This document shows positions 5,215 to 60,675 of a DNA stretch of 64,000 nucleotides, piece after piece (within the stretch, counting starts at the first letter, position 1; each line of letters starts with the position of its first letter). This DNA comes from Desulfurispirillum indicum S5. GTDB taxonomy: Bacteria > Chrysiogenota > Chrysiogenetes > Chrysiogenales > Chrysiogenaceae. Location of the stretch: the NCBI RefSeq assembly GCF_000177635.2, contig NC_014836.1, positions 415,501 through 479,500 on the forward strand, in the 5' to 3' direction. Position numbers and translations under genes: made by a program. The notes beneath the pieces were generated by a model. The model was not told where the DNA came from. It ran no database searches and saw only the letters and a program-made list of their open reading frames with translations.

Positions 5215-6446
5215 CTATAAAGCGCATTGGCGTTGGATAGCAGCCTCTATCGAGGCTGCTGAGTGCTCACTCACACCAGCCTGTTCGGCAAACTCGCTGA
5301 AGCGCAGAACAGTTGAGCGCACCCGCTCAAGTATTGCTGTTGCCGATTTGATTCCATGGGCTTTGCCAAGCTCCTGCAGGTGCTTTCTGCCAGGATTGCG
5401 TCCTTCGCCCATCACCATGGTGCTGTGTTCACCACCTGGCCCATAGGAGAAAGTCAGGTCGTATGCGGGAGCAAACTTCCACTGGCGGGTATCGTCAAGC
5501 AGGCAGGAAAAATTCTTGCTGTGATCATCCCGGTTGTGGCAGAGCACGTTGAAGCAGGCCAGGGCAAAGGCTTTTTGCGTCTCCTGAAAGCTACGGGTGA
5601 CAAGTGTGGTGGCCTTGAGGACATCATCATAGTCCAGGCAGGGAGTGCGGTGGTCGGCATGCAGCAATCCGGCAAAGCTGTGAACATGGATGCGCCTGCC
5701 ATCAGCGCGGTCAAATCGCCTTATACCGAAGTACATGCCACGCTCCGTCCTGAAAAGCCTTGTGGCTGGGATCTCAATGCCCGCATCCTGGGCCATAAGG
5801 CTATAGGCATACTCTATTGGCCCAATATCAGCTGGATCTGATGTGGCCCGAAATTTCACTATCCAGCTCTCTGCATCTGCAGTACCTGAGCCTGCCCTTA
5901 CGATATCTCCGTTTACCACGTCTACCATTACCTTTGGCCTGTCCCCTGCCGAGGAGCCGCTGAGCAAGAGCAGGTCTTCGAGACAAGTGCTGTCATTGCC
6001 TTGCAGGAGTTCCCAGGATTCACGACAGAGCGTATCGAGTGAAATCTCCCCAGGTGCCGTGCTGCTCACAACATGTTGCTGAGGCTGGTAACTCAGCGCG
6101 CCCATGCCATTGACCCCAATAAGTGTCAAAAGGTCCAGGGGCGTGAGGCGGCGAACGTCAATAGCATGCCTGCGCAGCTGACGATCGAGCAGGAATCGCC
6201 CCCACCCGTCAGGCAGGCTGTCATTGAAGAGCCCGAAAAGCCCGTCAAATACCTTGGGGTCGCCAAAGCGACCCCCGCTTGCAGTGGGAGTTTGAAAGGG
6301 GAGAGCTCAAGAGAGTGGCCGATAAACTCAGGGTCGTACTCAAAGGCGATGCGGCGCTGGGACAAAGCCAGTCGCCCCATACGCACCGGCGGAGAAAAGC
6401 CGTGGTGAAAAAAGACGTTGAGCAGTGTAACGGGCAAGACCTTCAT
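5215..6446 (-). pseudogene. hipA: HipA-family kinase toxin, frameshifted
   Basis: HipA toxins are Ser/Thr kinases that phosphorylate glutamyl-tRNA synthetase and are neutralised by HipB. The N-terminal part (6446 down to about 6277) reads VRMGRLALSQRRIAFEYDPEF. The rest continues in another frame with VFDGLFGLFNDSLPDGWG, then GSSAGDRPKV, the kinase motif HNRDDHSKNF and FAPAYDL. The two frames join at a run of five C on the plus strand (6272-6276); one more base would restore a protein of about 410 aa. A separate start at 6129 gives a 304 aa C-terminal piece. The ATG at 6446 overlaps the hipB stop by 4 bases. Confidence 0.85.
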
Positions 6447-6748
6447 GTGCGGGAGCCCCGCTTGGGTGTTTTGCTGGCAGCCAGCAGTTCATCAAGGGAT
6501 TGGGGTGACCGATTTTGCGAATCGCAAACAGCAGAAAAATCGTCAAGACACCCAAGCACCAGGGCCAGCTTGAGGAGGGATTCCAGGGAAATCTGCCCCG
6601 TGTGCTCAAAGCGCTTCAGGGAGCCAAGGCTCACCCCCGAGCGCTGGGCAAGCCCCTCCTGGGTCAACTTCATCTGCAGACGACGCTCCCGGAAGCGCTG
6701 CTGCAAGTCTCTTTGTATTTCCCGTGGAGTTGCTGAATATATAGCCAA
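6443..6748 (-). CDS. hipB: HipB-like Xre-family antitoxin
   Basis: This 101 aa helix-turn-helix protein reads KLTQEGLAQRSGVSLGSLKRFEHTGQISL over about residues 27-55, the typical Xre/HipB recognition fold. HipB represses its own operon and binds HipA. It precedes the frameshifted hipA with an ATGA overlap, the usual antitoxin-first order. A palindrome at 6784-6799 upstream is a plausible operator. If hipA is truly dead, hipB is an orphan repressor. Confidence 0.8.
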   Translation of the reverse strand: MAIYSATPREIQRDLQQRFRERRLQMKLTQEGLAQRSGVSLGSLKRFEHTGQISLESLLKLALVLGCLDDFSAVCDSQNRSPQSLDELLAASKTPKRGSRT

Positions 6749-6783
6749 TATAATAGCCCCTGAGTGGTATTTTCGCTATCTAC

Positions 6784-6799
6784 GGATAATATATTATCC
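6784..6799. promoter_or_regulatory. Palindromic operator candidate for hipBA
   Basis: GGATAATATATTATCC is a perfect 16-bp palindrome located 36 bases upstream of hipB. A second GGATA-type pair (TATCTACGGATA) overlaps at 6777-6788. HipB operators are built from TATCC/GGATA half-sites. The rest of 6800-7042 contains only the duplicated leader of the next gene. Confidence 0.5.
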
Positions 6800-7042
6800 A
6801 CAAAATGCAGTCAATGCAATGCAACGATTTCCCTGAGGGAGTCAGGTGGAAAGCCTGCTGTCATCAGCTCCAGATTCATCAGCAAACGTGAAGTCCGACC
6901 GTTGCCATGGCAAAGGGGTGAATCATGACGAATTCGCCGTGTATCTCCTGGAATTTCATGCTTTCCGGTTTACGCGACGCAGGTTGTCGCCTGGCTGTTG
7001 TAGCATCAATCCAGAGTTAGAAAAACATCAAAGGAGAGCAGT

Positions 7043-13201: not shown

Positions 13202-13594
13202 GCCGTTCTTGAAGAGCTTTGCAAGGATGGCCGATTGTACATCTGGGTGAAACTCCTCGTACATTGTGTTCCGTCTCACGTTATTTTTTTCCGTTGGCTT
13301 TGGGACTCGGAAGTGCTCAGTGACCAGCCACTTAATGTCTCTGCCAGCTGAAACCACCTGGCTGTTCAAAACGACCTGATCGGTGGTGATGATCCCGATT
13401 CCTTTTATGACAATATCTTTGCTCGACGGAGGGGCTGATTTGATGTAAACAATGTCGCCCACCTTCAGGGACCGGATGAACTGATGAAGCTCAGGGGCCT
13501 TCGAGGCATCCCACCCAGGGCCGGCAATGTTGCACTTAATGAATTCTTCGCTTACATCTTCGTTGTAGTGCGCGCCAATGGCAAAAATTCCCAT
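13196..13594 (-). CDS. Small PUA/EVE-like domain protein
   Basis: This 132 aa soluble protein reads like a PUA/EVE-type nucleic-acid-reading fold. MGIFAIGAHY opens it, GPGWD lies near residue 28, and a VGDIVYIKS strand near residue 47 is followed by IVIKGIGIITTD. EVE-like domains bind modified bases and occur with restriction and defence genes; the assignment here is tentative. AGGAGAAAGAT precedes the ATG. The stop codon overlaps a possible attC site, so it may be a cassette gene. Confidence 0.6.
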   Translation of the reverse strand: MGIFAIGAHYNEDVSEEFIKCNIAGPGWDASKAPELHQFIRSLKVGDIVYIKSAPPSSKDIVIKGIGIITTDQVVLNSQVVSAGRDIKWLVTEHFRVPKPTEKNNVRRNTMYEEFHPDVQSAILAKLFKNGA

Positions 13595-13693
13595 ATCTTT
13601 CTCCTGTTTCGTGCCTAATCTGTGTAGTCCTTGCGTGGAGCGAAGAAAGTGGCAAGATCCGTGAAAAGGGTAAGTCAGGTTGGGGTGATAGTT

Positions 13694-14926
13694 CTACGCC
13701 TTATCCGCTTCAGTAGATAAGTCTTTTTGAGTGAAGTACTTGATCCATAATGCAAATGCAATCCATTGTAGCCGGTAATACCCTTTTACCCCCTCCTTGA
13801 CTAAAATTATGTTTCTTGTTTTTAATGCTGATATAGCGTTATTTAATGTTTTTTCTGAGCCCCTGAACTTTTTCTTTATTTCTTCTTTTGTTATCCAGTC
13901 GCTGCCCTTCTCTGACATTATAACCAAAACATCACGATATGATTCACTGAGTATTTTATTAAAAAACATATCTTTATAGTACCTATCTCCAATTAGGCGC
14001 AATGAATTTGATATTGATTCATTCACATCATGCCCATCAATTATATGATCACTGTTTTGTTCAAATGCGCAATATGCTAACTGTTGAATGAAGTGAGGAT
14101 AACCTTCAGAAATTAGGTATATTGTGTCTACGGCAGCATCGGCTATTTCGATTAATACTTTTTGTTCATTTTTTACTTCAGTTAGACCTGATTCTATCAC
14201 TGCACGTGTGTCTTGTTTTGATAGTGTGGCTAATTCTAATTCTTCAAATATCCTTAAAGAAGACTGGTGGCTTTCACGTAATTTGTTCCTAACTTCTGGT
14301 AAGCCAGCCATTACGAATAGTACATTTTCGCAATTTTCTGATATTAGTTTTTCATTTAATATTTTGAGGAAAGAGCCAATTTGTAGTTCTTCTGGTGAAT
14401 TATCAGCCTCATCAATAAAGATAACAATTCCATCTTTTTTTGTCTTATCGTCACAGATAATTTTAATTGTATCTACCAGTGAGTAAATTGCATTGTCAAC
14501 TATGTCCTGAATCTCAGCTGGATTTAATTTAACGCCACCAACTTCAAGGCGTTTCACAAAACTCCAAACATCCTTTACCTTTTGAAGAACATCATTTTCA
14601 TTGCGTAACTGTCTTTCGATTTCAATATTAAGCTTTTGAATGAAACGAGTTGTGTTCATGCGATTGTCAATGGTAATGAAGACGTTTAGAAAGTTGAATT
14701 TCTCTTGATCCATTGAAAGTATATCGCCATTAGCAATAAATTTTGCATATAGCAATAAAGAAGTTTTTCCTATACCCCTTTCGCCAACAAACAAAAGATT
14801 AGTTGGGTTCCCTGCTTTAGTCTCTCTTAGAGATTTGTCAATTTTGTATAATTCATTATAACGACCTGAAAAAACACCGCTATATACAGGCTTGGTTGGT
14901 TTAAATGGGTTCGTAAATTTACTCAT
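13694..14926 (-). CDS. AT-rich AAA/STAND-like ATPase
   Basis: This 410 aa ATPase has Walker A GERGIGKTSLL near residue 46 and Walker B GIVIFIDEAD near residue 165. It then has a sensor-like region (NVLFVMAGLP) and a C-terminal winged-helix-like region (WITKEEIKKKFRGSEKTLNNAISAL). The layout resembles archaeal-type/ORC-like or TniB-like ATPases; the partner is unknown. The start MSKFTNPF at 14926 is preceded by GGGCAG. Codon use is far more AT-rich than its neighbours, a clear sign of transfer. Confidence 0.75.
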   Translation of the reverse strand: MSKFTNPFKPTKPVYSGVFSGRYNELYKIDKSLRETKAGNPTNLLFVGERGIGKTSLLLYAKFIANGDILSMDQEKFNFLNVFITIDNRMNTTRFIQKLNIEIERQLRNENDVLQKVKDVWSFVKRLEVGGVKLNPAEIQDIVDNAIYSLVDTIKIICDDKTKKDGIVIFIDEADNSPEELQIGSFLKILNEKLISENCENVLFVMAGLPEVRNKLRESHQSSLRIFEELELATLSKQDTRAVIESGLTEVKNEQKVLIEIADAAVDTIYLISEGYPHFIQQLAYCAFEQNSDHIIDGHDVNESISNSLRLIGDRYYKDMFFNKILSESYRDVLVIMSEKGSDWITKEEIKKKFRGSEKTLNNAISALKTRNIILVKEGVKGYYRLQWIAFALWIKYFTQKDLSTEADKA

Positions 14927-47999: not shown

Positions 48000-50147
48000 T
48001 CAGGAGAGGGCGGATACCCGGAAGCGCCCCATCAGGCGCTGCAGCTTACTGCTGGTGTTGCGGGCGGTGTCCGAGGCCTGGGAGAGATGGACAACCGACT
48101 GGCGCACCTGGGTGGTGCTGCCGCGCACCTGGGAAATATTGGCGGCGTGGCCCTCACTGCGGGCGGAGATACGGCGGATGGCTTCCAGCATCTCTTCGAT
48201 GACATCATAGAGGCTGCTGTTATCCGCTGCAGCTTCTTCGGCCAGGCTCAGTCCGCGATCCACTTCACTGACGCCATTGTGCATGATCCCCACCGCCTGC
48301 TGGGTCTGGGCGCGCACGCTGGCCAGCATGGCGCTGATCTCCTTGGTGGCGTCGGTGGTGCGTTCGGCCAGCTTGCTGACTTCCTGGGCCACCACGGCGA
48401 AGCCTCGTCCGTACTGACCGGCACGGGCGGCCTCAATGGAGGCGTTCAGGGCCAGAAGGTTGGTCTGGCTGGCGATATCGTTGATGACATCGGCGATACC
48501 GGCGATCTCCTCCGTGCGCTGGTCAACTTCCTGAATACTGCGCGAAGAGCTGTGTATGGCATCGCGGATGCGCTGGGTCTCCCGGCGTACCTGCTGGAAC
48601 TGACTCTGGGCGTTGGCAATGACGCTGTCCATCTCCGCGCGCATCTGACCTGCGGTCACAGCAGCGCTGCTGGTTTCGCTCATCTGACTGTCCAGCTCCT
48701 GCAGCATGTTTTCTATGGCGGTTTCCATCTGACGGGTAGCGCTATCCACAAAGCGGTTCTGATCGATCATCTCGTCGTTGGCGTGGCGTGCTTCATGGGT
48801 GAAGCGAACCACCTGGTGGATCGTGCTGTCCAGGTTGTCAATGAAGCTGTTGATCCAGCGAGCCATTTCGCCGGTCTCATCGCCGCTGAGGTAGCGCTGG
48901 TCGAGCCGCAGGGAGAGATTTCCGCCTCCTTCGGCAATGGTGCGGATGACATCATTCATGGCTCGCATGCGCCCGACGATGCGGTTGACTCCCAGGCGGT
49001 AGAAGATCCAGGCGCTGCCGAGGAAGAGGGTGGCGTTGGCCATGTGAATAAGCGGAGCGGCCAGGCCGATGCCAAAGGTGAAGAAGAGATTCAGAGCGCC
49101 CATGCCGGTGATGATAACCAGGAACATGCGCATGAGCAGATAATTGATGGAGCGGCGGCGGTAGACCTCCTCCAGGTCTGCTTCGCACATCATGCCCCAG
49201 GTGTCCAGGGATCCGGGCAGCTGGAAGGTGACGCCCTTGCCGATAACGGGAATATGGCGATAGTCGGAGTAGCCGGGGTATTTGATGTAGAGGTTCTGAC
49301 CATTTCTGATGGTCTCGCGCACACCGGGGTGCAGCTGACCGGTGGCAGGGTCCGTGAACGTGATTTCAAACTCGGTGTGGTTGTGGATTTTGATAACGCC
49401 ATAACCGGAGTCAATACCCTCCTTCAGGTTCTCGCCATGGGAGAAGGTGCTGTCCTCAAAGCGCGAGCGGGAGAGGGCGGTGCCGACGGGAATGCGGGAG
49501 TCGAAAACCGGTTTTACCATGAAGATATAATTGTCGCCGGATTCAGGATAGATGTGCCCGGCTTCGCGCTGAATCAGGTCGCTGACCACGTCATTGGGCA
49601 CCCTGGCGCAGAGCACACCCAGGGTCTGGCCACTGCTGTCGCAGATAGGCTGGTGGAACATCAGGGTAACCGCATCGTGGAATGACGAAGTGGTAGGGCC
49701 GATGCGTTCGGTGTCCGGATCAACATAGGGGCCATGGAGGAAGGGCTGACGCAGGCCCACGGCCAGGGCCTGTTCGCTGAAGGTGCGCTTTCCTTTGCGC
49801 CAGGGTAGAGTCGATGCCAGGATCATGCCTGCCGGGTCGACCACGAAGAGCTCCGCGATCTCCAGCAGCCGCGAGCGGCGTGCTTCGATGATGCTCCCTG
49901 TCTGGGAGACATCCTCTCCCAGCTGGTCTGCCAGATGGCGCAGATATTCCCACTTCTGCTGTGTCCAGTCCTGCAGCAGGGTGGTGCGGGTCTGGGCAAT
50001 GCCCTCGAAGGTTTCTTCCACCGCATGGTATGAATGACGATTCAGCAGGCACGACCAGCCCATTGCCAGTTTACCGGTACGGCCCGTCCAGGGGAGCCAG
50101 CGTCGTTCGCTGGCGGTCAGGGACATCGCGTCGCTTGTGAGTAACAT
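48000..50147 (-). CDS. Methyl-accepting chemotaxis protein, unusual topology
   Basis: This 715 aa chemoreceptor has a Cache-like sensor region (about residues 45-345), two close hydrophobic helices at about 360-415 and a HAMP-like linker. The signalling domain has hairpin tip [36 protein letters not shown] near residue 575. I see no hydrophobic helix before the sensor region, so it may face the cytoplasm, with the helix pair as a membrane hairpin. A sigma54-type promoter lies 41 bases upstream. Confidence 0.88.
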
Positions 50148-50372: not shown

Positions 50373-51107
50373 CTATTTGCGATTTGCGTTTGGTGGCTGC
50401 TGAGTCGAAGGTGCTTCCAGTATCACGCCCATGCTGCGCACGCTCCTGATATGATGGTGGCCTATTTTTTTGCGCAGCCGCAAGAGCAGGTTCTTCAGGG
50501 CGGCTTCGCTCATCTCCTCGTCACCATACACAACGCTTTCGATCATCCGCTGTGACACAAGACTCCCGCGTTTTTTCAGCAGCAGCTCCAGCAGGCAGCT
50601 CTCCTTGCTGGTCAAGGAGATGGTGGAACCCTTGACCAGCAGGTTTTTCTTCAAGGCGCTGTAACTCACATTATCATCAATGCGCACAAAGAGTTCGCCG
50701 TTTTCTTCCAGCTTCTCCACGCAGGCGACCAGTGCCTGACGCAGCCTGGAGAGGTCGATGGGTTTGAGGAGGTAGTCGACGAAGTTGAGTTTGACGGCCT
50801 GCAGCAGATCCTCGGTTTCAGCATAACCACTGGTGATGAATATGGGCGTGCGGGAGTCGAGTCTGCGTATTTCTTTGGCAAGGGTAAGGCCACCCATGAC
50901 CGGCATCTTCAGATCGGTAATGACGATGTGAATGGGTTCGCGTTCGAATATTTCCAGGGCGCTTTTGCCATTGTCAGCCACGTGAAGGTGCGCGAAGTAT
51001 CGTGTCAGGAGTTTGGCCGTCTCTTCGCGCAGCAGCGGCTCATCTTCGACGTACAGAGCGTTGAGGTTCTTGACAACTTCGAGGGGGGTCATCGGGGTGG
51101 GCTCCAT
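50373..51107 (-). CDS. OmpR-type response regulator
   Basis: This 244 aa protein has a receiver domain (NALYVEDEPLL with the acidic pocket, phospho-acceptor Asp in VITDLKMPVMGG near residue 65, Lys in LLKPID near residue 116). A C-terminal winged-helix domain follows (LTSKESCLLELLLKKRGSLVSQRMIESVVYG). No histidine kinase lies beside it. It is divergent from the hydrogenase operon; a direct repeat suited to an OmpR-type dimer lies between the two at 51178-51197. Confidence 0.88.
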   Translation of the reverse strand: MEPTPMTPLEVVKNLNALYVEDEPLLREETAKLLTRYFAHLHVADNGKSALEIFEREPIHIVITDLKMPVMGGLTLAKEIRRLDSRTPIFITSGYAETEDLLQAVKLNFVDYLLKPIDLSRLRQALVACVEKLEENGELFVRIDDNVSYSALKKNLLVKGSTISLTSKESCLLELLLKKRGSLVSQRMIESVVYGDEEMSEAALKNLLLRLRKKIGHHHIRSVRSMGVILEAPSTQQPPNANRK

Positions 51108-51291: not shown

Positions 51292-52842
51292 ATGGGGGAG
51301 AAAATTATTATTGACCCCGTCACACGCATTGAGGGGCATCTGCGCGTCGAGACGGCCATGGAAGGCCGACGGGTCAAATCAGCCCGCTGCAGTGGCGACA
51401 TGTTCCGAGGCATTGAAAAGGCCCTCAAGGGGTTTGACGCCCGGGTAGCCCAGCATATTACCCAGCGCACCTGCGGGGTTTGCCCGTACGCCCACGCGGA
51501 AGCTTCGGCCCTGGCCCTGGAGAGTGCCATGGGCATCCGGCCCAATGTCAATGGTCAGCTGCTGCGCAATCTCACCGTCGGAGTTTACCAGATTAAGGAT
51601 CACCTGCTGCATTTTTATACCCTGTGCGCCCTGGATTTTATTGATATCACCGCCGTACTGGAATACCGGGGCAATGATCAGGCGCTGCTGCAGGTGAAGT
51701 CGTGGGTTCAGCATGAACTGGCCAATAACAAGGTATTTCCGGCGGCGCCTTTTCTGCCCCGTTACGAAGCAACCTACTGTTCTGACCATGAAGTAAATAT
51801 TTCCGGAATAAAAGGCTACCTTGATGCCATCGAAATCATGGCCCAACTGCACAAGATGGTGGCCATCTTCGGTGCCAAAGCGCCCCATCCGGTGGCCATT
51901 GAGGCGGGTGGCGTGACCACCATGCCAACGGTGGACCGCCTCGCCCACTTCGGCACTCTGCTCAGCCACTGCACAGATTTTGTGCGCAATCGCTACGGCA
52001 ATGATGTCCTGGCAGTGGCTAAGGCCTTTCCCGCTTACTTCAAGGAAGGCAAAGGCTATGGGAATACCCTCTCGGCTCCCTATCTGCCCGACGGCAATGG
52101 CGAGAATTTCTTCTTCGCCGGTGGCGTCACCATCGGAGGAAGCTATCGCCCCCTGGATCTGGGGAAAATTACCGAGGACCACTCCTACGCTTACTACCAC
52201 AATGGTTCCAGCCCCCTGCTGCGCCCGCTGCAGACTGATACCCTGCGCCCTCTGAGCGCCCGTGACTTTGAAGTCGAGCAGGGGAAGGTCGATGGCAAGT
52301 ACAGCTGGAACCGTGCGCCGCGCTATGATGGTCATGCCATGGAGGTGGGCCCGGCAGCCCGGGTGGTCAATACCTACCGCAGTGGTTCCAATCCAGAGCT
52401 GACCGCCATGGTCAACCGCCTGAATCGTGAACTGGGTATTACCATTGACGACTACCCCTCCGTTATGGGTCGTCACCTGAGTCGCTATATTCTGGCGGAC
52501 CTTACCCTGCGGCACATGGAGCGGCAGCTGGCGGAAGTGCGTCCCGACGTGCTTGGCTTCACCCACCACCCGGTGCCGGTGAATGCGCGAGGGGTCGGCA
52601 TCACCGAAGCGACCCGCGGTGCCCTGGCTCACTGGATTGAAACCGATGGCAAGGGCGTGATCCGCAACTACGAGATGGTGGTTCCCACCACCTGGAATAT
52701 GTCTCCCCGCGATGGCCGTGGCAACCCCGGTGCGGTGGAGAAGATGCTGGAGGGTACCGAGGTGGCCGATGCCGCCAATCCCATGGAGCTGGCGCGCATT
52801 GTGCGCTCAACAGACCCCTGTATCGGCTGTTCGGTACATTGA
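51292..52842 (+). CDS. [NiFe] hydrogenase large subunit without C-terminal extension
   Basis: This 516 aa subunit holds the Ni-Fe(CN)2CO site for H2 oxidation or evolution. The N-terminal motif RTCGVCPYAHAEA gives Cys61 and Cys64; the C-terminal motif DPCIGCSVH gives Cys510 and Cys513. The protein ends at that His516. Most large subunits carry 10-25 more residues that an endopeptidase removes; sensory (HupV/HoxC) and CooH-type subunits do not. The start MGEKIIIDPVTRIEGH at 51292 has GGGAGG upstream. The large subunit precedes the small one, the reverse of the common order. No maturation genes are in the window. Confidence 0.93.
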   Translation: MGEKIIIDPVTRIEGHLRVETAMEGRRVKSARCSGDMFRGIEKALKGFDARVAQHITQRTCGVCPYAHAEASALALESAMGIRPNVNGQLLRNLTVGVYQIKDHLLHFYTLCALDFIDITAVLEYRGNDQALLQVKSWVQHELANNKVFPAAPFLPRYEATYCSDHEVNISGIKGYLDAIEIMAQLHKMVAIFGAKAPHPVAIEAGGVTTMPTVDRLAHFGTLLSHCTDFVRNRYGNDVLAVAKAFPAYFKEGKGYGNTLSAPYLPDGNGENFFFAGGVTIGGSYRPLDLGKITEDHSYAYYHNGSSPLLRPLQTDTLRPLSARDFEVEQGKVDGKYSWNRAPRYDGHAMEVGPAARVVNTYRSGSNPELTAMVNRLNRELGITIDDYPSVMGRHLSRYILADLTLRHMERQLAEVRPDVLGFTHHPVPVNARGVGITEATRGALAHWIETDGKGVIRNYEMVVPTTWNMSPRDGRGNPGAVEKMLEGTEVADAANPMELARIVRSTDPCIGCSVH

Positions 52843-52852
52843 AGGAGGACGC

Positions 52853-53797
52853 ATGTTTACTGAAATTTCCAGGAATATCGACCGGCGCCAGGCCCTGAAG
52901 CGGATTTTTGCAGCCATTACGGCCGTGGGCGCGTCGTCATTCCTTTCGTTTGAGGATCTGCTGGCGGCTGACGCAAGCCCCCGGAAACCTCTCAATATTC
53001 TGTGGCTGCACGGAAGCTCCTGTACCGGCTGCTCGTGCGCCCTGCTGGACATCGAAAAGGTGCCGGTGCTGGATGTTCTCACCCGCTTTGCCCATATCGT
53101 CTTCCACCATGACCTCTCCCTGGCCACTGGCGATCAGGTCATCGCCATCAAGGAGAAGCTGCTGGCTTCGGAAGAGCCTTTTGTGCTGGTGCTGGAGGGT
53201 TCCATCCCCGTGAGCATGCCCCATACCTGCATGGTGGGGCACCGCACCATGGATTCCTGGATGGAGCGCATTCTGCCAAAGGCCACGGCCTGTATCGCGG
53301 CAGGAACCTGCGCCAGCTTCGGCGGTATTACCAAAATGCCCGGTATGGACACAGGTTGCATGGGACTTTTGCAGTACTCCAGTTTCAAAGGGTATACCAC
53401 GCCGTTGATCACCCTGCCCGGTTGCCCCATGAAGCCCGAACACCTGCTCTATGCCCTGCTCTACTTTACCGCCCATGGGCGACCACCCGCGAGTGATCGC
53501 TATGGACGTCCCCGGCATATGTTCGGACGCACGGTTCACGACCGCTGTGTGAACTACGCTGACTTTCAGGAAAACTACTTTGCCCGCAGGATCGGCGAGG
53601 ATGGCTGTCTGCTGAAGCTTGGCTGTCAGGGAATGGTGACCCGCAGCGACTGCGTGGTACAGGGTTACAATAATAATACCAATACCTGCATACGTGCCGG
53701 ACACCCCTGTATCGGATGCTCCGGGGAGAGCTTTCCGCGGCGGGTGATGTTCCACAGTTATGATGACAGCCGCGATATCATTCCAAGGAGGCCCTGA
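52853..53797 (+). CDS. [NiFe] hydrogenase small subunit with Tat signal
   Basis: This 314 aa subunit carries the iron-sulfur chain. The N-terminus has a twin-arginine signal ([10 protein letters not shown], Arg11-Arg12, then a mild hydrophobic stretch), so the dimer should be exported folded to the periplasm. Proximal-cluster cysteines appear in [15 protein letters not shown] and LPGCP. Distal and medial ligands appear in [14 protein letters not shown] and HPCIGC. There is no C-terminal membrane helix, and no cytochrome b gene follows, so electrons need another acceptor. GAAGGAGG precedes the ATG; the next gene begins 2 bases after the stop. Confidence 0.93.
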
Positions 53798-53799
53798 CC

Positions 53800-55644
53800 A
53801 TGCATGCTGCAGAGGATCGTGTCTCGTTTTTCCACTCCCTGATCTTCCGGTCCATCGCCTACCTGATGATCAGTGCCTTTATCCTGTTTCTGATCTCCTT
53901 TTTCCTCTATCAGGGCTGGCAGGAGCGCCTGATTCAGCAGCGCCTGGTGGAACATGGCAACAGCTACATGGAGATGCTGGTGGCCAACACGGCCGACTCC
54001 ATTGCCAAGGGGCAGCGCAACTCCTTTCAGAACGTGATAGACAGTTTCACCCAGGTCAACGAGGTGGATGAAGTGGCCATGTACGGGCGCAACTACGGTC
54101 TCATGAACTATGTCTCCAACCAGGTGACCGTCGGCATCCCTTTTGTGCAGCACAACGGAACCTTTGTGAACCCCAACGAGCAGCTGTATCGCGAAAGCCG
54201 CGGCATGTACCACCGCAAGGACTGGCATATGGTGGACATGGAGGAGACGGAGCAGGGCCTTGCCCACGTGCGGATAACCCAGGCGGCGGGGCAGAGCTGC
54301 GTGGACTGCCACATCGCCATCAATCCCGATATCCGGTTCGATAACGGTTTTGCCCATGCTCTGGACAATGGCCGTTCGCACTTCTACTACCGCATGGAGG
54401 TCACCCGTGACTGTATCTCCTGCCATACCAACTGGCGTGAGGGAGAGACGGCGTCCTACCTGCGCATCTCCCTGAATAATCACGCCATGGACGAGCAGCG
54501 ACGGGAGAATACCCTGGGAATCCTCTTTGTCATGGCATCGGTACTGGTTCCCCTGCTGATCATCGTGATTCTCATCATGCGCCTGATGATCTACCGGCCC
54601 CTTTCAAGGGCCCTGCGCTTCGCCCAGGGCGTGGCGGCCGGGAACCGTTCCCATCAGCTGGACGCCAGGGAGAAAAACGAAATCGGTCAGCTGGGGCGTG
54701 CCCTCAACAAGATGATGGACAATATCAACGACGCCGTGCGCGATGCCGCCCGGCAGGTGGGCAGTGTCAGCGAGCGGGTCAGTGATATTTCAGGCCAGCT
54801 GTTTGCCCATATCGAGCAGGCCAGCCGCGGTGCTCAGCAGCAGAGCGAGAAAACCCAGAAGACGGCCCACGCCATGGATGTCATGAGCTCCACCATGGTG
54901 GAAGTGGCCCAGAAGACCTCCGAAACCCATGAAGCGGCGGAGTCGGCCAAACACAAGGCGGCCGAAGGTTCCGAAGCGGTGCGTCAGGTGGTGCAGTCCA
55001 TCAACCACGCCCGCACGCAGTCCCTGAGCCTCAAGGAGAACATGGGTATTCTGGCCCGTCAGGCCGAAGATATCGGGCAGATCATGAACCTGATTCGCGA
55101 CATCGCCGATCAGACCAACCTGCTGGCGCTGAATGCCGCCATTGAAGCGGCCCGGGCCGGCGAGTCGGGACGGGGATTTTCGGTGGTGGCCGATGAGGTG
55201 CGCAAGCTGGCCGAGAAGACCATGGAGGCCACAAAGAATGTTACCCAGGCTGTGGAAGCCATTCAGCGCGGTGCCCGGGATAATATGGAAAATGTCGATC
55301 AGACCACCAGCGTTATCGGCGAAGCCACCGAGAGGGCGAACCAGTCCGGCGAGTCCCTGCAGGAGATCGTGACCCTGGTGCAGTCAGCCACGGATCAGAT
55401 TCGCCTGATTGCCCGAGCCATGGAGGAGCAGTCCGCCACCAGTGAGGAAATTAACAGTTCCATTGACGATATTCGTCGCATATCTCTGGAAACCAGCCAG
55501 TCCATGGAGCACTCCTACCACGATGTGGAAGAGCTCGCCGCCCAGGCAGATCAACTGCAGAAAACCATCGAGAAAATGCGTCAGGGGGATGTGGAAGACG
55601 GCGGCAGGCATCTGCCGCGCCTGGCGGAAGGACGGCAGGGGTAG
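53800..55644 (+). CDS. Di-haem c-type methyl-accepting chemotaxis protein
   Basis: This 614 aa chemoreceptor has TM1 at about residues 14-38. Its periplasmic sensor domain (to ~235) contains two haem-attachment motifs: CVDCH (Cys167, Cys170, His171) and CISCH (Cys205, Cys208, His209). TM2 follows at about 240-265, then a HAMP domain and an MA signalling domain with the tip [23 protein letters not shown]. The sensor resembles DUF3365/Tll0287-like haem domains; DcrA of Desulfovibrio and some Geobacter receptors are haem-bearing precedents. Being 2 bases behind the hydrogenase small subunit, it is a plausible electron acceptor or reporter of that enzyme. Confidence 0.93.
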
Positions 55645-57937: not shown

Positions 57938-59317
57938 TCAGAGGTCAAACTGCTTGATTTTGCGTTGCAGGGTGCGCAGGCCGATGCCCAGCATGCGAGC
58001 CGCCTGGGTACGGTTCCCCTGCACCTTGTTGAGGGTATTGACGATGGCCTCTTTCTCGATCTCCTCCATGGTCATGCCCACGGCGAAGTCGATATGTTCC
58101 TCTTCGTCAGGCTCATCGCTGAAGCCTTTCTGGTCCGCGTATTCCGAGGGAATATCGCTGGTGGTGAGCACTTCACTGCGATTGAAGATCACCATGTTTT
58201 CCAGACAGTTACGCAGCTCGCGCACATTGCCGCGCCAGGGGATATTCTTGAGTATCTCCATGGCCTCGGCGGATATGCCGCGGATGGTGCGGTTATTCTC
58301 CTTGGCGAAGGTTTTCAGGAAGTGGTTGACCAGCAGGGGTATGTCTGACTTACGTTCCCGCAAAGGGGGGACATGGATCACCACGACCTTGAGGCGGTAG
58401 TAGAGATCCTCCCGGAAGTGGCCCTTGCGGACTTCTTTCTCCAGGTCGCGGTTGGTGGCGGCGATGATGCGCACGTCGATGGGGATATTTCCGGCGCCGC
58501 CGACACGCATGATTTCACGGTTTTCCAGGACACGCAGCAGTTTCACCTGCACGGCGAGGCTGATTTCACCGATTTCGTCCAGAAAGAGGGTACCGCCGTT
58601 GGCCAGTTCAAATTTTCCCTTGGACTGTTTCATGGCACCGGTGAAGGAGCCCTTCTCATGACCAAAGAGTTCACTCTCCAGCAGACTTTCAGAAAAAGCC
58701 GAGCAGTTGATGGCCACATAGGGCTTTTCCCAGCGTTCCGAGCACTCGTGGATGGTCTGGGCAATCAGCTCCTTGCCGGTTCCCGACTCTCCCAGCAGCA
58801 GTACCGATGCCCGGGTGGAGGATACGGTGGTGATTTTTTCGAAGATTTCCTGCATAGGTTTGCTCTGGCCGATCAGCAGAGGAAAGGTGTTGTTCTCTCC
58901 GAGGATGGAGCGCCCTGGCCCAGCGGGTGGGGTTGAAATAGTGGTGGCCTTCTCCCAGGCCTGGGCGACCAGGGCGCGCAGCTCCGAGAGGTTGACGGGC
59001 TTTGCCACATAGTCAAAGGCGCCGTGCTTCATTGCTTCAACGGCGGTTTCCACGGAACCGTAGGCGGTGATGAGGATGATTTCGCTGCTTGCCTGAAGGC
59101 CCTTGACAAAGGGCACCAGATCCAGGCCGCTGCCATCGGGCAGGTTCAGGTCCGTGACCACCACGGGGTGCTTGTGCTGACGAAAAAGGCGCTGCGCCTC
59201 GGAGAAAGTTTCCGCTTTGTGGGTCTGATATCCTTTTTTCTCCAGGGCCCGGCTGATGGATTCCAGGGAGGCGCGCTGATCGTCAACTACCAGGATGGGG
59301 GGTGTCCCGTCGCTCAT
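57938..59317 (-). CDS. NtrC-family sigma54-dependent response regulator
   Basis: This 459 aa activator has a receiver domain (VVDDQRAS; phospho-Asp in VVTDLNLPDG near residue 56; Lys in AKPVN). The AAA+ domain has Walker A LGESGTGKE near residue 178, a sigma54-contact loop reading GSFTGA instead of the usual GAFTGA, and Walker B GGTLFLDEIGE. The Fis-type HTH at the end reads NRTQAARMLGIGLRTLQRKIKQ. It overlaps its kinase gene by 4 bases. It may drive the sigma54-type promoters seen elsewhere in the window. Confidence 0.94.
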   Translation of the reverse strand: MSDGTPPILVVDDQRASLESISRALEKKGYQTHKAETFSEAQRLFRQHKHPVVVTDLNLPDGSGLDLVPFVKGLQASSEIILITAYGSVETAVEAMKHGAFDYVAKPVNLSELRALVAQAWEKATTISTPPAGPGRSILGENNTFPLLIGQSKPMQEIFEKITTVSSTRASVLLLGESGTGKELIAQTIHECSERWEKPYVAINCSAFSESLLESELFGHEKGSFTGAMKQSKGKFELANGGTLFLDEIGEISLAVQVKLLRVLENREIMRVGGAGNIPIDVRIIAATNRDLEKEVRKGHFREDLYYRLKVVVIHVPPLRERKSDIPLLVNHFLKTFAKENNRTIRGISAEAMEILKNIPWRGNVRELRNCLENMVIFNRSEVLTTSDIPSEYADQKGFSDEPDEEEHIDFAVGMTMEEIEKEAIVNTLNKVQGNRTQAARMLGIGLRTLQRKIKQFDL

Positions 59318-60675
59318 GTGGGTATATCCGGTAAAGTAATGGTGACTGTAGTGCCCCGGCCAAGGATACTCCGTATCTCCAGGGATCCGCCGTGGGCTTC
59401 CACAATATTTTTGGCAATAGGCAATCCTAACCCAGTTCCCTCTTTTTTAGTAGAGTAAAACAAATCATACACCTTTTCGCGATCCTTGGGGGAGATGCCC
59501 GGGCCGTTGTCGTCGATGACGATCACGTGGTGACGCTTGCGGTTTATGGAGTGGGCTATGGTTATGATGCCGCCGGATCTTTTTTCCAAGGCCTCTATGC
59601 TGTTTTTGATGATATTGGTGAGTACCTGGCGTATCTGGTTGCGGTCCATGGAAATGGTGTCACTGCGGCTACTGGTTTTTTCCAGGACGAGCTGGATGTT
59701 TTTTTCCATGCAGGTCTTGCGGAAAAGCTCCACCACTGCGCCCATGGTTTTGGTGATGCTCTCATGGCGCAGCCTGGGCGAGTGCATGCGTGAGTAGATG
59801 AGGAAGTCATTGAGCAGTTCGTTCAGGCGCTGCACTTCATCGGAGATAACATGGCAGGTGCTCATGGCTTCATCACGGTCAATGGTTTCTTCGCGCAGAT
59901 CCTCTTCCAGCAGCTGAATATTGAGGTTGATGGCGTTGAGGGGGTTCTTGATCTCATGGGCCAGACTGCCGGAAATACTGCCGATGTAGGCCAGCTTCTC
60001 GTTGGCGCTGACGCGCTTCTGCAGCTCTCGCAGCCGATTGATCTGGTTGACCATGTAGAGAAAGAGGGCGATGACGGCACCGAGGATGACCAGGAAGACG
60101 ATGGAGTGCTTGCGCATCAGACCCTGGATTTCCGAGGTGAGCGAATCGCGGATCAGCGCACTGGAAACGCCAAGTCGCAGAACGCCGACCCGGCTGGTGT
60201 CGTAGAAGATGGGGATAGCGATATCAAAGCCGTCAGCGGTGAATTCGGCTGTTTCCAGCAGGCCTGACTGGATCAGCGGGCGATCGGCGGCAGCGGCATT
60301 CAGGGAGACGGCATCGTTGAGGATTATTCCCTCGCGGTGACGGTCTGTGTGCAGGACGACCAGGCCATTGGTCTCCATGACCATAACGTAGATGATCTCC
60401 TGATTGCGGGAGCGGATATCCTCCATGAGCTGGTGCAGAGCCCGATAGTCGGTCTGGCTGGTATTGAGGCGGCGGATATCGTAGGAACTCATGATGTCTT
60501 CTATTTTCGACTGAACCCGGTAGGCGTGCACTTTGGACTCGCTGAGCTTGTTGTCTACGCTCTTTTCGGCAATGATTCCCACGATGAACTGCAGCGAGAG
60601 CCACACCGTGGCCAGAATGACCAGAGTGAAGAGAATATAGAAGACGATCAGGTTGACTTTGAGATTTTTGTCCAT
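59314..60675 (-). CDS. Membrane sensor histidine kinase
   Basis: This 453 aa kinase has TM1 at about residues 8-33, a periplasmic sensor of about 150 residues (SDYR-type PAS/Cache-like fold, including VMVMETNGLVVLHTDRH), and TM2 at about 190-212. The HisKA helix follows with phospho-acceptor His in SLAHEIKNPLNAI near residue 240. The ATPase domain closes the protein (NIIKNSIEAL, DNGPGI, GTGLGLPIAK, GRGTTVTI). It forms a pair with the downstream NtrC-type regulator and starts 3 bases after the dusB stop. Confidence 0.93.
   Translation of the reverse strand: MDKNLKVNLIVFYILFTLVILATVWLSLQFIVGIIAEKSVDNKLSESKVHAYRVQSKIEDIMSSYDIRRLNTSQTDYRALHQLMEDIRSRNQEIIYVMVMETNGLVVLHTDRHREGIILNDAVSLNAAAADRPLIQSGLLETAEFTADGFDIAIPIFYDTSRVGVLRLGVSSALIRDSLTSEIQGLMRKHSIVFLVILGAVIALFLYMVNQINRLRELQKRVSANEKLAYIGSISGSLAHEIKNPLNAINLNIQLLEEDLREETIDRDEAMSTCHVISDEVQRLNELLNDFLIYSRMHSPRLRHESITKTMGAVVELFRKTCMEKNIQLVLEKTSSRSDTISMDRNQIRQVLTNIIKNSIEALEKRSGGIITIAHSINRKRHHVIVIDDNGPGISPKDREKVYDLFYSTKKEGTGLGLPIAKNIVEAHGGSLEIRSILGRGTTVTITLPDIPT

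Follow-up and report, generated by a model that had tools for sequence, protein, structure and literature searches.

A tailless [NiFe] hydrogenase with a Tat-like leader, encoded beside a heme chemoreceptor gene in Desulfurispirillum indicum S5, as a candidate periplasmic H2 receptor

What kind of [NiFe] hydrogenase would have a large subunit without C-terminal tail and, at the same time, a small subunit with a twin-arginine (RR) leader? Both features meet in the window studied here, which is the whole analysed stretch of 64,000 nucleotides (G000:C1:415501-479500) from the genome of Desulfurispirillum indicum S5 (2,928,377 bases). A preliminary description of this DNA had pointed to sensory hydrogenases, which proved useful, and had taken the mixture as a sign of unusual maturation and export control. 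The combination is most probably explained by a gene on which that description did not remark, as a putative heme-binding methyl-accepting chemotaxis protein (MCP) is encoded 2 bases downstream of the hydrogenase genes.

The large subunit (51292..52842, + strand, 516 aa) matched PF00374 with 435.5 bits, the scanned protein having one extra N-terminal residue. ATG 51292 is the probable start, since the alternative ATG 51199 precedes the conserved N-terminus. Both ligand motifs, RTCGVC and DPCIGCSVH, were identified, and the top matches among PDB sequences were large subunits of periplasmic [NiFe] and [NiFeSe] enzymes. The frame reads ...IVRSTDPCIGCSVH and then TGA, so the C-terminus is ...STDPCIGCSVH-TGA as had been described, with the Ni-binding motif at 52813-52839 and the stop codon at 52840-52842 (together 52813..52842, + strand). 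A hidden tail would have no space, because the ribosome-binding site and the ATG of the small subunit (52853) come within 10 bases. At the two positions that general knowledge of these enzymes assigns to the gas channel, V and L were found in place of the bulky I and F of regulatory hydrogenases; elsewhere in the family the first position was I in L155 and C in L070.

The preliminary description would have been refuted if close relatives all had the tail, but the closest ones lack it. The nearest relatives, G001 (71% identity) and G002 (77%), stop at the same DPCIGCSVH, and a sequencing error is excluded because both end at the identical residue. The 69 tailless relatives from named genomes were closed by TAA (36), TGA (26) or TAG (7), and since all three stop codons close tailless frames, TGA read as selenocysteine is no general explanation. 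A frameshift or a selenocysteine read-through that restores the tail was ruled out by the relatives together with the varied stop codons. There is hardly any chance left that the gene encodes an ordinary uptake hydrogenase which lost its tail by decay or only seems to have lost it through a sequencing error: groups 1 and 3 are usually tailed, like the two other [NiFe] large subunits of the genome (L005, ending ...HVMDVKGNSLAQYRVDPQTGLSS, and L006, ending ...HATGSMPLDVELLDSQGRLLQHVQR), but the identical ends of the relatives, the three stop codons and the conservation of ligands and gene row have already refuted this explanation.

The small subunit (52853..53797, + strand, 314 aa; PF14720 80.5 bits, PF01058 74 bits) has RR at residues 11-12, followed by a moderately hydrophobic stretch. 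Judged by its motif, the leader is Tat-like, in line with the Tat signal claimed before; the Tat consensus has F where this leader has A. No hydrophobic C-terminal anchor helix was found in the small subunit by hydropathy or by alignment with HyaA, HoxK and HoxB. The Cys and His ligands of the Fe-S clusters were at the expected positions in the alignment, and the medial-cluster position was occupied by Cys, as in HoxB, where HyaA and HoxK have Pro, which by known rules suggests a [4Fe-4S] medial cluster. In the tailless loci of named genomes that have the small subunit downstream, all 66 of these small subunits had both the medial Cys and the RR motif.

The next gene (53800..55644, + strand) encodes the MCP of 614 aa (PF00015 157.8 bits, PF00672 27.9 bits). 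Its hydrophobic segments are at aa 10-40 and 236-270, and since both CxxCH motifs (aa 167 and 205) fall between them, the hemes would be periplasmic; attachment of heme c is suggested by these motifs. The first motif, CVDCH (54298..54312, + strand), is located in a long insert of the Cache domain and occurs in the two-heme subfamily only. The second, CISCH (54412..54426, + strand), aligns with the only CxxCH that the one-heme receptors of the phylum have. Both were invariant in 12 of 12 aligned two-heme sensor domains. When the sensor stretch was compared with Pfam no family passed its cut-off, the Tll0287 profile giving 10.7 bits for the window protein and 14.5 bits for L041 (cut-off 24.1 bits), and the PDB sequences returned only weak matches to MtrC (E 0.009-0.011). 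The fold was modelled by AlphaFold2 for the periplasmic heme sensor domain with the ends of the membrane helices (53896..54561, + strand; pLDDT 86.1, pTM 0.81), and in the model the domain has a Cache fold: it aligned with the WalK sensor over 132 residues (Z 11.1, rmsd 3.1), and Foldseek returned a WalK chain (E 1.8e-4) and GSU0935 (E 0.018). CISCH takes model residues 173-177, flanked by strands 160-168 and 185-194 (strands 3 and 4).

In the window, the small subunit follows the large subunit after a 10-base gap and the MCP follows after a 2-base gap, all on the + strand. The phylum search took in 59 genomes, most of which belong to the phylum of the window, and gave a match in 50; the C-terminus was inspected in part of these matches. 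Among the C-termini of 29 loci (L010-L038), 26 were tailed, and the tailless ones belonged to the nearest two relatives (G001 and G002) and L032. Wider stretches from the phylum gave 10 tailless loci and then 9 more, which with the window makes 20 in 16 genomes. The order of large subunit, RR small subunit and CxxCH signalling protein was found in all 20 of these. A CxxCH receptor was found in none of 22 tailed controls (the two of the genome itself and 20 phylum loci); an MCP-like match without CxxCH was seen in 4 of the 22 control stretches, in L136 less than 1 kb downstream.

Named genomes were scanned with an alignment of 11 tailless proteins as query, and 79 loci were found, 69 tailless, 6 tailed and 4 cut or broken. 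The small subunit was downstream in 66 of the 69 tailless loci, and a CxxCH signalling protein completed the row in 62 (44 with one motif, 18 with two), while none of the 6 tailed loci had a CxxCH receptor. Three of the seven misses (L051, L058, L062) are at contig edges; L049 lacks the small subunit and continues with a MASE3-PAS gene, and L121 has the MCP upstream. According to the record titles the hosts included Gammaproteobacteria (Sedimenticola, Thiocystis), Campylobacterota (Sulfurimonas, Nautiliaceae) and sulfate-reducing groups, and a Spirochaetia MAG (L119) was also found, in which the end of the large subunit is broken.

Several loci had arrangements of their own. In L046 an opposite-strand ORF (5533-6954) that resembles an insertion element lies between the small subunit and the MCP, and its start seems to be repeated in the ORF at 13236-13973. 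A Sulfurospirillum MAG (L066, 7001-9485) has the tailless large subunit and the RR small subunit with no adjoining heme receptor, and kinase-like and response-regulator-like genes are on the other strand. The tailless large subunit of a Bipolaricaulota MAG (L117, 6908-8512) is a different kind of tailless enzyme: the small subunit upstream of it has no RR, and genes for methylene-tetrahydrofolate reductase come after it. An extra MCP-like gene without CxxCH separates the heme MCP from the small subunit in the Desulfobacula/Desulfotignum-type loci L088, L097, L111, L113 and L116, and CxxCH MCPs flank the tailless hydrogenase genes on both sides in L086 (5281-6702 and 9532-11196).

The third gene of the row was not always a chemoreceptor. 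It was classified by regular expression, which left 15 of 62 as "other", and these were read by Pfam. An MCP match was obtained for L063, L084 (below the cut-off, 30.6 vs 34.6 bits), L088, L097, L105, L111, L113 and L116. In L061, L067 and L107 a HATPase kinase comes after the two-heme domain, with a CheX gene next in L061, and L065 too combines a two-heme domain and a HATPase kinase, judged from Pfam and CxxCH positions. The one-CxxCH protein after the small subunit was PAS-GGDEF-EAL in L155 and L157 and PAS-GGDEF in L163. The HATPase of L068 is in the next ORF, and L080 and L103 stayed unclassified (split gene, contig end). A CheA-CheW-receiver gene was identified by Pfam directly after the receptor in L074; the regular expression for CheA matched nothing, missing even this one, and carries no weight. 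As the heme sensor is kept while the output changes, the hydrogenase is best read as the input of the sensor, and sensing is preferred to catabolism chiefly on this ground.

The maturation of the enzyme was considered from the side of the protease. PF01750 matched a single protein of the genome, a HycI-type protease encoded beside the tailed Hya-type enzyme, and a protease-like ORF of 143 residues, so named from its look and place only, adjoins the other tailed enzyme; no protease was found beside the tailless enzyme of the window. A regular-expression search for a protease motif gave a hit near 22 of 35 tailed loci (29 from the phylum, 6 from named genomes) and near none of 88 tailless loci (19 and 69), with a Fisher p of 1.3e-15, which overstates the case because the loci are related. 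In the genome, where the preliminary description had advised looking for a matching endopeptidase, both of these proteases stand beside tailed enzymes. Of the unusual maturation and export control proposed there, the tail loss and the RR leader are real. The absence of the protease is no accident, and export that bypasses a proteolytic checkpoint appears to be general across the whole tailless family.

Outside the core row, a divergent gene encodes a response regulator with REC and winged helix (50373..51107, - strand), which is a possible regulator of the operon. A close match to it adjoins the module in L039 (1.1e-68), and a weaker one is near the module in L063 (1.2e-41). Just past it is a second MCP (48000-50147, - strand, 715 aa) with a weak Cache match, which is similar to the heme MCP only in the signalling part (27% identity). 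Downstream, at 57938-60675 (- strand), there are genes for a sigma-54 activator of REC-AAA-HTH_8 make-up and for a histidine kinase to which sCache_3 matched weakly. The sigma-54 consensus had 0 matches in the window, and the scans for sigma-70 promoters and terminators were no better than chance level.

Taken as a whole, the row rather probably encodes a periplasmic H2 receptor, in which the [NiFe] hydrogenase would hand the electrons of H2 on to the heme-Cache receptor. Both subunits would mature in the cytoplasm, and presumably no endopeptidase step would be needed because the large subunit is tailless. The folded pair would then exit through Tat on the RR leader of the small subunit, as the motif suggests, and would be soluble or docked in the periplasm, since hydropathy gave no membrane anchor. 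There the Ni-Fe site would oxidise H2, and the electrons would cross three Fe-S clusters, probably all [4Fe-4S], and reach the heme(s) c in the Cache domain of the MCP encoded in the same row. The redox change of the heme would move the receptor via HAMP and alter the activity of CheA, so that swimming, or some other output under Che control, may come to depend on H2. A role as sensor subunit of the receptor, and not as bulk uptake hydrogenase, is the probable reason for the lack of a tail.

TatC and three CheA matches were found in the genome of D. indicum S5; those at G000:C1 1373172 and 1746856 have equal scores and 806 aa each and may be duplicated. D. indicum, of the Chrysiogenota, is listed as motile in an entry of PMC3368425. 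The heme potentials given in a section of PMC8396549 are -156 mV for GSU0582 and -251 mV for GSU0935, and H2 could reduce hemes of that range. On the other side, the donors that the entry in PMC3368425 lists for D. indicum are acetate, lactate and pyruvate, H2 not being among them, which counts against the receptor, as do the tailless loci without the full row (L066, L049, L121, L117) and the tailed control L136 with its MCP. Swimming need not be the output in every host, since the row is carried by Desulfotignum MAGs (L111, L116) and a strain of this genus, D. phosphitoxidans, is described as non-motile, with MCPs but no flagellar proteins (PMC4046663).

On a catabolic reading of the same genes, the enzyme would be a soluble uptake hydrogenase of the periplasm that supplies the general cytochrome c pool, the redox state of which would be read by a neighbouring, co-regulated energy-taxis receptor. 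This is unlikely. In its favour, the channel residues are the canonical V and L, unlike the I and F of HoxC, and the nearest solved relatives are catabolic periplasmic enzymes. The Nautilia pair GAmH_0978/0979, in which a passage of PMC2628731 sees a NiFeSe-type uptake enzyme, soluble in the periplasm, may be of the tailless family, since the row occurs in L070 and L071, two Nautiliaceae MAGs. Against it, the row has no carrier cytochrome, the heme sensor persists as the output turns into kinase or GGDEF/EAL, and such a receptor accompanied none of the 22 tailed enzymes of the phylum.

It is considerably less probable, and indeed improbable, that the MCP heme senses NO, O2 or general redox, with the hydrogenase only keeping the heme reduced or giving H2-driven protection. 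Such sensing has been ascribed to DcrA, GSU0582/GSU0935 and the sCache_heme proteins; heme-Cache domains fused to signalling outputs are reported as NO sensors in part of PMC12889525, which counts against an H2 receptor, and the CxxCH between Cache strands 3 and 4 agrees with the sCache_heme arrangement given there, while GSU0935 appeared in the fold search. But the Tll0287 profile fails its cut-off, and the tie between receptor and tailless hydrogenase, seen in 82 of 89 tailless loci, would be left unexplained. The periplasmic H2 receptor is kept as the preferred reading.

Almost as probable as this reading of the window is its extension to several phyla, in which periplasmic H2 receptors would form a modular class composed of a tailless, Tat-exported [NiFe] reader, a heme-c Cache switch and an interchangeable output, which is a chemotaxis receptor, a kinase with CheX, GGDEF or GGDEF-EAL. 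If so, bacteria would gain H2-guided swimming and H2-controlled c-di-GMP. The receptor would read its ligand by taking the electrons of the ligand outside the membrane, and it would be explained how a Tat-exported hydrogenase manages without the protease checkpoint. Swimming towards H2 was reported for Methanococcus maripaludis (Brileya 2013, via a passage in PMC4266047) and is suspected in a sulfate reducer in a passage of PMC12004927, neither of which passages names a receptor for it; the row of hydrogenase and heme MCP is a concrete bacterial candidate.

Descent was examined in a tree of 68 large subunits, chosen out of more and with tails trimmed. The type of the window (21 rows) joined the sulfate-reducer type (15 rows) with SH-aLRT 98, and the other 8 tailless rows, of Deferribacterota type, were unplaced in the quick tree. 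A clade of all 44 tailless sensor-family rows was not rejected (p-AU 0.576, likelihood 3.5 higher), which is no proof. HoxC grouped with L160/L161 (98*), and a clade of the 44 rows with HoxC, L160 and L161 (group-2-like) was not rejected either (p-AU 0.643, likelihood higher). The tailless state perhaps has a single origin, which may be shared with HoxC.

Among known systems, HoxBC/HupUV (group 2b) is similar in the large subunit, which stops at the Ni motif (HoxC has DPCMVCTVH), in the Cys at the medial position of the small subunit (HoxB), and in H2 sensing, which is known for HoxBC and suggested here. HoxB has no RR leader, a difference to which the preliminary description had rightly drawn attention, HoxC has I and F in the gas channel in place of V and L, and the gene after HoxBC is annotated as an ATP-binding protein, presumably the HoxJ kinase, in place of a heme MCP. 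Filing the enzyme as HoxBC was ruled out by the leader and the channel residues, with which shared descent is still compatible. The uptake enzymes of group 1 (HynAB, HysAB, HyaAB) are the nearest solved sequences and share the RR small subunit and the canonical channel residues. They have a tail that a HyaD/HybD protease removes, whereas here there is no tail and no protease gene adjoins; the gene order of large then small subunit is the reverse of theirs, and the cytochrome b or anchor that connects them to the quinone pool was not found in the row, where the MCP is the next gene. An ordinary group 1 enzyme was ruled out by tail, protease and gene row.

For the link to chemotaxis, the MCP-linked putative class of HydDB is [FeFe] C2 only, [NiFe] 2b being linked to histidine kinases and 2c to diguanylate cyclases in the classification part of PMC5037454; the GGDEF-linked L155, L157 and L163 may therefore overlap with the putative [NiFe] group 2c. 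Group C2, "Chemotactic (putative)", is alike in that a hydrogenase is proposed there to sense H2 through MCPs, but it has another metal centre in an unrelated protein, whereas the present enzyme is a [NiFe] protein of PF00374, and the predicted periplasmic location and the heme receptor are features of the window. A table in PMC12727194 has an MCP cluster, uncommented, among the gene neighbours of [NiFe] hydrogenases. In the literature searched no pair of [NiFe] hydrogenase and MCP was described, and an earlier mention in subscription literature is possible. The word "hydrogenase" has 0 occurrences in the main text of PMC8396549 and PMC12889525. The receptor itself resembles DcrA, GSU0582 and GSU0935, which are MCPs with a periplasmic Cache/PAS-like domain and covalent heme according to a section of PMC8396549, and the sCache_heme proteins (DUF3365/Tll0287, PF11845), whose Cache fold carries the CxxCH between strands 3 and 4 according to part of PMC12889525. 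It differs from these heme-c chemoreceptors by a second CxxCH in a long insert and by being tied to a hydrogenase.
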